This document shows, piece after piece, positions 4,151 to 44,230 of a stretch of DNA of 58,085 nucleotides. Numbering within the stretch: the first letter of the stretch is position 1; every line of letters starts with the position of its first letter. Below the pieces are notes generated by a model, which saw only the letters and a list, made by a program, of their open reading frames with translations, had not been told where the DNA came from and did no database searches. Made by a program: the position numbers and the translations under genes. Source of the DNA: an uncultured bacterium (GTDB lineage: Bacteria; Bacillota_I; Bacilli_A; RFN20; CAG-826); assembly GCA_949299165.1 (NCBI GenBank), contig CASFZJ010000007.1, forward strand, positions 1 through 58,085, given 5' to 3'.

Positions 4151-5497
4151 TTACATTCCTCCAATGACTTCATCATAGCTCTTTCCGGCGATAAGACCAT
4201 TGATTTGGTTATTAAGCTCAAGAGCAACACCAACAACGATGATCATTCCAGTTCCACCAAGGGCTAGAGATTGATCGCTTCCAAAGACTCCTGAAAGAGT
4301 GAGTACAACTGGAAGAGCAGAAATAAATGAGAGAGATAAAGCACCAATTAATGTGACTCTATTTAAGACTTTTCTCACATATTTTTCAGTCTCAATGCCT
4401 GGTCTAATTCCTGGAATATAACTTCCATTTCTTTGGAAGTTTTCCGCAAGTTGAGCAGGATTTATTTGTAAGTTTGCGTAGAAGAAAGTGAACGCAAACA
4501 CCAAAACGATATAAATAATTAATCCCCATGGCATCATAACTCCACCAGTATCAACAAGTTGATTGTATTGGAAGATTTTAAGCCACTCCGCATTTGCTGC
4601 ATCACTAGAGATAAAAGTTGCAATAACGCTTGGTGCCATCAAAATTGAGCTAGCAAAGATGACAGGAATAACACCTGCTGAGTTAACTTTTATTGGTAAA
4701 AAGCTGGCTTTTGCGAGTTTTTCACTTGTTCCAGTGCGGGTTGCATGTTGTACAGGGATCTTTCTACGAGAAAGTTCGATGAAGACAACAAAGGCAATAA
4801 TTGCAATAAATGCGAGCACATAGAGGATGAATTGGAAGACACCTTTTGTGGCTTCAATATTACCATGATTCCATGATTCAAGAACCCATCTTTGGAAGGC
4901 AGTTCCAATTTGACTTGGGAGAGAACAAACAATACCAGCAAAGATAATAACAGAAATTCCGTTTCCTATGCCTTTTGTAGTGATTTGGTCACCAAGCCAC
5001 ATAACTAACATCGCTCCTGCTACCATAACAGTAACAATATAAGCGTAAGTTAGGAAGTTTTCTTCCATGGTGAATGAAATCCAGGAAGTATTGAGTGCTG
5101 TTTGAATAATTCCATATGCTTGAACAGCGGCAAGCATAAGAGTGAGATAACGAGTTGCCATCTCGATTTTTCTTCTCCCATATTGCCCTTGTCGATTTAG
5201 TTCAGTTAAGGCTGGAAGAACATCCATACTTAATAATTGAATAATGATTTGAGCAGTAATATAAGGTGAAACACCAAGGGCGAAGATTGAAAAGTTTTGT
5301 AATGCCCCGCCTCCAAGTAAGTTCATTAAGGCTAAGACATTGTTAGAATTAGCCGTTAATTGGCTAGTGAGTTCACTAGCGTCAATACCTGGAGTTGGAA
5401 TTGCACAACCGATTCTAAAGACAAAAAGAATCATTATCGTAAAAAATATACGATTAACGACTTCTTTATTTTTAAAAATTTCGACAAACTTTTTCAT
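4151..5497 (-). CDS. secY: protein translocase subunit SecY
   Basis: Channel subunit of the Sec translocon, 448 residues with about ten membrane helices. The cytosolic loop YGRRKIEMATRYLT, the plug-region FRIGCAIPTPGIDASEL and the C-terminal NRVTLIGALSLSFISALPVV are recognisable. Placed between rplO and adk as in the spc operons of other Bacilli. The start at MKKFVEIFKNKEVVNRIFFT gives the normal short cytosolic N-terminus. Confidence 0.97.
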   Translation of the reverse strand: MKKFVEIFKNKEVVNRIFFTIMILFVFRIGCAIPTPGIDASELTSQLTANSNNVLALMNLLGGGALQNFSIFALGVSPYITAQIIIQLLSMDVLPALTELNRQGQYGRRKIEMATRYLTLMLAAVQAYGIIQTALNTSWISFTMEENFLTYAYIVTVMVAGAMLVMWLGDQITTKGIGNGISVIIFAGIVCSLPSQIGTAFQRWVLESWNHGNIEATKGVFQFILYVLAFIAIIAFVVFIELSRRKIPVQHATRTGTSEKLAKASFLPIKVNSAGVIPVIFASSILMAPSVIATFISSDAANAEWLKIFQYNQLVDTGGVMMPWGLIIYIVLVFAFTFFYANLQINPAQLAENFQRNGSYIPGIRPGIETEKYVRKVLNRVTLIGALSLSFISALPVVLTLSGVFGSDQSLALGGTGMIIVVGVALELNNQINGLIAGKSYDEVIGGM

Positions 5498-23404: not shown

Positions 23405-23461
23405 CAAGAAAAACCTCCCCTGTTAAATTTTACGTGTGGTTAGTCATGGGTTAGACACACG
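23405..23461 (-). promoter_or_regulatory. queT: candidate preQ1-type riboswitch in the queT leader
   Basis: The leader has a six-pair hairpin CGTGTG/CACACG (23456-23461 with 23433-23438), a 17-base loop with CTAACCC, then an A/U-rich tail and GGGGAGG. Loop CCC can pair with the GGG of the ribosome site, an H-type pseudoknot as in class I preQ1 riboswitches that block translation. The size, the gene and the position at the 5' end fit. The conserved class I tail is not an exact match, so it is a candidate only. Confidence 0.45.
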
Positions 23462-23472
23462 AGTCGATTAAG

Positions 23473-23532: not shown

Positions 23533-23674
23533 AAAAAAAGAAGAGACTCATTTTTTTCACTCTTTTCCTTCTTTTTTTAATTATTATTCTTCTTCGAGCA
23601 TCTCTTCACATCGCGTTTAGATTTATGAGTCTCTTCAGTTCAGTTGATATTAGGTGTTCCTAATATCTTCCTCT
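23533..23674 (-). ncRNA. candidate small RNA, about 140 nt, with own promoter and terminator
   Basis: A consensus promoter lies just upstream and transcription should begin near 23674. The RNA has a perfect nine-pair hairpin (GATATTAGG/CCTAATATC, 23646-23667, loop of four) near its 5' end. An 11-pair long-range stem follows (AAGAGACTCAT at 23626-23636 on the minus strand with 23541-23551) closing a 74-base domain, and then C and seven U (23533-23540), an intrinsic-terminator arrangement. No convincing ORF is inside. It is separate from queT, which has its own promoter downstream. I do not recognise the family; it lacks the SRP, 6S and T-box hallmarks I looked for. Confidence 0.6.
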
Positions 23675-23680
23675 GATTAA

Positions 23681-23709
23681 TTTATACCATGGAAAAAATT
23701 TATTGTCAA
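23681..23709 (-). promoter_or_regulatory. strong sigma-A promoter of the candidate small RNA
   Basis: TTGACA (23704-23709), exactly 17 bases, TATAAA (23681-23686) on the minus strand, with TG ahead of the -10. It is the best promoter match in the window. Confidence 0.75.
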
Positions 23710-23747
23710 ACTTTTTTTAAAAATTTTTTACGAATTATTACAATAAA

Positions 23748-23762
23748 CGAAAGCGTTTTCCT
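23748..23762. promoter_or_regulatory. cre-like sequence upstream of the small RNA promoter
   Basis: ACGAAAGCGTTTTCC resembles a CcpA site (two mismatches), about 40 bases upstream of the -35. Tentative. Confidence 0.25.
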
Positions 23763-24362
23763 AAAACAAAGTAAAATTTCTAGTGTTTTTTATAAAATTT
23801 ATAGTAAATTTTCCTTTCATTTAAAAATTTCAAACGAAAGTTTCTTGAAGAAAACTTGTATTTTTAAGTACGAAATAAGGTTTAAATATATAAAAACTTA
23901 CGAAATATTTTTAAAATGAAATTAACAAATTGATGCCCAACACAATTGCTTTTTCTTTTTTCTAAAATTATATCCAGAAGATAGATTATCTATTTTAAAT
24001 TTGCAGTATTTTTTAAAGTTCTAAAAGCATGTATAGAGTCTACAAAAAACATTTTTGAAAATTGAAAGAACTCATTACCAATAACATCGCTAAATTTAAA
24101 TTCCATTTTTCGTCTATATTATTTTCGCTATTTTTGGTCTTGTCTCATTTAAAATTATGCAAGTTATCTTGATTATAAATTCACTTTCCAAATAACATTA
24201 AATTTTCAAATAAAATATCTACTTAAAAATTTAAGCAAAAAAGAATTATTTTCACAAAATAGTTGAGTTTTGCGAGGTTTTTGAAAAATAATTTCTTTTA
24301 AATAACATAAAATAAAAGAAAAATAAATCATTTTGATAGCAAAAATTTTTTTCTAAATTTTG
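23763..24362. other. gene-poor AT-rich region
   Basis: No gene is supported. The longest open frame on the plus strand (to 23919) has no start signal and a composition like translated AT-rich noise. One copy of the dispersed motif sits at 24263-24282. It could be decayed sequence, since both flanks hold intact transcription units. Confidence 0.45.
24263..24282 (+). repeat. dispersed 20-bp motif, intergenic copy
   Basis: TTGAGTTTTGCGAGGTTTTT, full consensus, about 90 bases upstream of the PfkB promoter. Confidence 0.6.
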
Positions 24363-24370
24363 ATAAATTT

Positions 24371-43815: not shown

Positions 43816-44230
43816 TTTTCTTCCTCCTAAATAAGAATAGACTTCTTATAAATCATAGGAGTTTTCATGTTTCTCTATTAAGTATTGCCAACGAATACTT
43901 TTGTTTTGTGTAGTCCTTAATTTTGGTTTAAGGGTAGAGACGTAATCACCATATCTAGATTACTTATACACGAAACCCGATTGATTTATCGCTTATATTA
44001 AATAATAATTGGAAGCAAAAATATATAACAAAATTCAAAAGTTTTTGTGAAAACACTTTCATATTATTTTCACATTAAAAAAGTAAAAATAATGTTTTAC
44101 AAGATGAAAAATTGGTATAAAATAACTTAAAGTTTTTCACAAAATCCAAAATTAAGATAATATTAACAAATTGTAAATTTTTCCTAGGAAATTTTATCAA
44201 AAATCCTAGGAATTTTTATTAACTAAAAAT
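43816..44230. other. leader and intergenic region of the nucleoside operon
   Basis: Holds the riboswitch (43908-43971), a hairpin AAGTATT/AATACTT at about 43880-43900 that may be its expression platform, a cre-like TGAAAACACTTTCA at 44048-44061, and two CCTAGG palindromes (44183-44188, 44205-44210) at the lipase gene end. No gene is seen. Confidence 0.5.
43908..43971 (-). ncRNA. guanine-class purine riboswitch
   Basis: The three-helix aptamer is complete on the minus strand: P1 GTGTA/TACAC, P2 GTAATC/GATTAC closing a loop with GATATGG, the J2/3 CTCTACC, and P3 CCTTAA/TTAAGG. The J3/1 strand reads GGACTAC, with C at the ligand-pairing position (74), which specifies guanine/hypoxanthine over adenine. 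Its only evident target is the nucleoside-binding lipoprotein and importer operon, so uptake would be shut off by purine. Confidence 0.88.

Follow-up and report, generated by a model that had tools for sequence, protein, structure and literature searches.

Just 5' of queT, the queuosine-precursor transporter gene, a 58,085-nt contig from an uncultured bacterium (the window, by which we mean the whole stretch of DNA analysed) carries a promoter-like sequence, a long stem and a U-tract, raising the question of whether an RNA is made there and, if so, whether it serves queT or stands on its own. The first-pass annotation had taken the locus for an orphan RNA forming an independent unit, and had likened it to riboswitches and 6S-like RNAs. 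Reading of the sequence places this unit on the minus strand, at 23709-23533.

Layout of the locus in the window

The unit begins with a -35 box, TTGACA (23704-23709, minus strand, as for all features of the unit), followed after a 17-nt spacer by the -10 box TATAAA (23681-23686), a sequence match placed in the alignment of the members (A7); TTGACA, TTGACT or TTGATT stands at the equivalent -35 position in the other members. The predicted start at about 23675 would give an RNA of approximately 142 nt. Its 5' domain (23640-23676) combines an outer UCAG/CUGA pairing with a perfect 9-bp hairpin, GATATTAGG-AACA-CCTAATATC (23667-23646). The closing stem, P1, has a 3' arm, ATGAGTCTCTTC (23540-23551), that is the exact complement of the 5' arm, GAAGAGACTCAT (23625-23636), and doubles as a terminator stem in front of a U7 tail (23533-23539). 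The 12 perfect pairs of P1 enclose 73 nt, which contain an inner hairpin, P4 (CGA-U-GUG..UGC-UCG, 23595-23613; conserved and short, and aligned partly by hand), and a conserved unpaired motif, AUAAURRU, which is AUAAUAAU in the window (23580-23587; alignment A8). All the elements that had been annotated at first, namely TTGACA-17-TATAAA, the perfect 5' hairpin, the long stem and U7, are present on this strand; for the stem, the counts of 11 pairs and 74 enclosed bases become 12 and 73. The locus was also said to hold no ORF, and indeed no minus-strand ORF of at least 30 aa overlaps it. Upstream of the unit, TTCGTAAA lies close to the -35 box and is common to the genomes G000, G013, G017 and G001, and around 660 nt of AT-rich DNA (23710-24370) separate the RNA promoter from pfkB without a gene of at least 80 aa.

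The predicted fold of the RNA reaches -32.4 kcal/mol, compared with -18.6 ± 3.0 kcal/mol for shuffled sequences (z = -4.6; none of 200 shuffles was as good). A search for a perfect 12-bp stem with a loop of 35-110 nt and a T-run returned a single site in the window, the RNA locus, and a single one in 30 dinucleotide-shuffled versions of the 58 kb, both strands included. It could still be argued that the locus is only a terminator with a fortuitous promoter and yields no functional RNA, given that the genome is AT-rich and promoter-like sites are common in it. A consensus promoter scan of the window returned 11 such sites against 12.6 expected, and does not list the promoter of the RNA because it requires T at the last -10 position. 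Against this explanation, the RNA in the window is not preceded by the end of a gene, and the comparison with related genomes bears on it as well.

Members of the family and their covariation

A BLAST search against 59 related genomes found the RNA in G013 (95%) and G017 (79%) and its 5' half in G001; matches from the fifth rank down were rejected, as they look like A-rich, low-complexity sequence. The DNA upstream of queT was read in 23 genomes of the genus, as was that upstream of the divergent pfkB, and members in G009 and G012 were recognised by eye from synteny. These two have an equal architecture with very different stem letters, the arms being GAGGGAACTCAC...GTGAGTTCCCTC in G009 and GAAGGATCTACT...AGTAGATCCTTT in G012. 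A covariance model trained on five members (R2) recovered two more, in G025 (E 2e-6) and G004 (E 1e-5), both outside the training set, these E-values being rough. The unit is thus found in seven of the 26 genomes of the genus, and in an eighth, G001, as the 5' half only, at a contig end. The RNAs range in length from about 88 to 143 nt. The 5' hairpin is present in G000, G013, G017, G001, G009 and G012, and in all six the hairpin's GATAT lies exactly 19 nt from the first -10 base. The members in G025 and G004 lack it and are made up of just the core, with the closing stem, the inner hairpin UUCAG..CUGAA, the motif AUAAUAGU, the stem and the U-tract. In these two and in G009 and G012, AUAAURRU sits exactly 4 nt before the P1 3' arm. 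A 20-nt palindrome, TATATCAATATATTGATATA, overlaps the RNA promoter in G025 (L116, ~9860-9835, minus) and G004 (L117, ~4225-4250), and is a possible operator.

In the core alignment (A8), 98.9% of the cells are standard pairs and 10 of the 15 pairs are altered on both sides; for P1 by itself, pairing is 100% and 8 of 12 pairs are altered on both sides. None of 500 shuffles reached the A8 covariation score, and sliding the partner by 1-3 columns lowers the pairing to 40-53%. The A7 alignment, which includes the 5' hairpin, is 98.4% paired, and in 12 of its 27 pairs both bases change. Part of the work on the core alignments was manual: inserts were trimmed, N padding was added and the register was picked by hand. 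These choices favour the short P4, so that the evidence for P4 is weaker than that for P1, whose arms are uninterrupted and whose covariation is independent of that register. The 12-bp stem followed by a U-tract, as in intrinsic terminators, is also kept with compensatory changes, and all seven members fold better than their shuffles (z = -4.1 to -6.3). The covariance comparison in relatives proposed in the first-pass annotation therefore came out on the side of an RNA, the paired bases being conserved through compensatory changes. With its shape preserved while its letters change, we conclude from these alignments that this is a real small RNA family, earlier undescribed.

These results refute in the main the idea of a fortuitous promoter beside a terminator, through the stem covariation in the first place; the fixed 19-nt spacing, the conserved inner motif, the recovery of unseen members by the model and the persistence of the RNA in the clade also stand against it, and we regard it as very unlikely. 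We find it hardly credible that the RNA is of a toxin-antitoxin or leader-peptide type, in which the domain would conceal a short ORF. Short GTG, TTG or ATG frames can be read in single members, for example G009 and G012, but the members share no frame, start or peptide, and no ORF of at least 30 aa lies on the strand. Moreover, G000 and G013, though near-identical, are set apart by indels of 1 and 4 nt within the domain, which is therefore not coding.

A supported branch (95/96) of the queT protein tree sets the seven carriers apart from the other genomes in it. R2 and R3 were run against 279 genomes of the order and gave no further convincing member; 12-17 candidates were scored per genome, so distant members may be missed. 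Three weak model matches within the family had E-values of 0.09-0.24. After inspection of sequence and fold, the weak matches of R1, R2 and R3 in the genus, and the best of those in the order, were dismissed as coding or as simple terminators that lack the inner motif. Synteny and covariation together can thus establish an RNA gene despite a sequence turnover that leaves BLAST the nearest relatives only.

Changing neighbours and the queT leader

The next gene on the same strand is queT in G000, G013, G009 and G012. In G017 it is an ORF of 137 aa starting about 8 nt past the U-tract; G025 and G004 have a transporter operon there, behind a Tyr/Phe-rich leader peptide, with the 137-aa ORF, queT, tgt and queA about 5 kb beyond that operon. 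This is most simply read as a single ancestral locus, 5' of the queT block, at which the RNA persisted while genes around it were inserted or lost.

The main rival to a stand-alone RNA is a cis-acting leader, in which a riboswitch-like or protein-binding domain, with the closing stem as terminator, would gate read-through into the next gene. We consider it possible but rather unlikely. The ORF in G017, so near the U-tract, lacks a clear promoter of its own, and the stretch between the RNA and the leader peptide of the transporter in G025 and G004 holds no obvious strong promoter; in addition, a compact stem-closed domain with an unpaired motif at fixed spacing may recall an aptamer. However, the downstream gene is not conserved, and instead of the constant gene or pathway of a riboswitch the RNA precedes queT, an HTH-like ORF or a transporter. 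As had been annotated, queT has a promoter-like sequence of its own (TTGTTT-17-TATAAT, 23501-23473), downstream of the RNA, followed by its own conserved leader (23466-23414, minus), and both features are shared by every member and by relatives that lack the RNA. Elsewhere in the genus, where the RNA is absent, the 137-aa ORF directly follows its own promoter-like sequence. Refolding of the seven members with P1 forbidden cost 15-22 kcal/mol and left both arms essentially unpaired in all of them; no competing or antiterminator pairing was found for the arms, and since they have no alternative partner, no switch is visible. The changing neighbours, the lack of another pairing for the closing stem and the riboswitch-like leader that queT already has weaken the suggested likeness to a riboswitch. 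In turn, the view of the locus as an independent orphan RNA gains from the clade-wide structure and promoter, the strong covariation and the same changes in flanking genes.

The RNA was also considered as a leader of the 137-aa ORF in general, and rejected because that ORF occurs elsewhere without such a leader. The 137-aa protein is conserved in G017 (L081, 4865-5278, minus) and nine other genomes, with no confident Pfam match, and is possibly an HTH protein. In most genomes other than G017, the start codon, ATG, lies at most ~20 nt past a TATAAT-like box, a closeness which suggests a leaderless mRNA. A role as transporter leader was likewise rejected, as the leader of the transporter is found in three genomes only, two of them with the RNA. 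There, the ABC transporter operon is preceded by a short ORF, MSNLIKFVNSFYFYYYYFDRNQ, that has a good ribosome site, and then by a terminator-like hairpin (G004, L117 4448-4630; G025, L116 ~9627-9450, minus), an arrangement that looks like ribosome-mediated attenuation by tyrosine/phenylalanine.

The queT leader (23414-23466, minus, in the window) is strongly conserved there and in 22 other genomes, with the pattern GAGUG/GUGUG-UCU-[insert, sometimes a hairpin]-CCCAUGACUAAC-CACUC/CACAC-UUAAAA..AACAGGGG. Compensatory changes are seen in its P1, and a CCC/GGG pseudoknot extends to the Shine-Dalgarno region. Type II preQ1-I riboswitches have AC before the P1 3' strand and an A-rich tail (PMC11625349), and the queT leader fits both. 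A comparison of the leader with Rfam gave no match at E-values up to 10; it is likely a preQ1-I riboswitch of variant form, missed by Rfam, in which the loop is enlarged. Elsewhere in the window, a purine riboswitch (RF00167) is found at 43891-43991 (minus; 52.9 bits).

Proposed action and relation to known RNAs

Considering that the downstream genes differ and that no antiterminator pairing is seen, we read the unit as a stand-alone small RNA. It has a promoter-like sequence of its own (a sequence match at a fixed distance to the hairpin) and the stem and U-tract of an intrinsic terminator, and it is noncoding. It is probably a small RNA gene with its own promoter and a closing stem that is the terminator, most likely acting in trans via AUAAURRU. 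Transcription would start at its own promoter and end constitutively at the U-tract, and the closing stem would be at once the helix that closes the domain and the intrinsic terminator. AUAAURRU, with P4 beside it, would be displayed at the open side of this stem as the most likely working part, and in trans it might pair with mRNAs or bind a protein. Pairing of the inner domain with the starts of the queT and pfkB mRNAs was no better than in shuffles, hence neither is supported as a target. Unlikely, in our view, is a variant in which P4 and AUAAURRU make up a compact domain, binding a ligand or protein and closed by the terminator helix, where binding would set termination without an antiterminator; if true, a compact domain closed by its own terminator would be a new RNA architecture.

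In agreement with the early view that no known family fits, Rfam scans of the window and the RNA locus at gathering and permissive thresholds gave nothing relevant to the RNA, and scans of four divergent members at E-values up to 1 gave no match of any kind. Nothing on this RNA was found in the PubMed Central literature, and a literature search on Candidatus Onthovivens and its relatives found no sRNAs. The family thus adds a structure-supported RNA to these poorly studied uncultured gut Bacilli.

The small RNA resembles preQ1 riboswitches (RF00522, RF01054, RF02680) in its place upstream of queT in the window. It differs from them in being a separate unit with its own terminator rather than the queT leader itself, in being missing 5' of queT from most genomes of the genus, and in preceding other genes in G017, G025 and G004.

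What it has in common with 6S RNA (RF00013) is a long stem that closes off a single-stranded region. That it could be a strongly diverged housekeeping RNA, for example 6S, is extremely improbable in our view. RF00013 has no match in the 26 genomes of the genus, so that the place of 6S is formally vacant there, but the same search was positive in only five of 14 control genomes and this absence means little; it may reflect divergence rather than loss. The RNA itself is shorter than 6S RNA, has one long closing stem and a small inner hairpin where 6S RNA has a central bubble between closing and apical arms, and is found in only seven of 26 genomes; lacking the apical arm and any match to the 6S model, or to Rfam at all in four divergent members, it does not bear out the 6S-like comparison made at first.

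The closest likeness is to the intergenic bacterial sRNAs, which also have a promoter-like sequence of their own, no ORF, a length such as the 88-143 nt seen here, a stem with a U-tract and a narrow phylogenetic range. In this sense the sRNA family, new and narrow, is of an ordinary, known kind, although it matches no Rfam family. To the specialist it is one more orphan sRNA, unusual in that the helix enclosing its entire domain doubles as the terminator stem, in place of a separate 3' hairpin.
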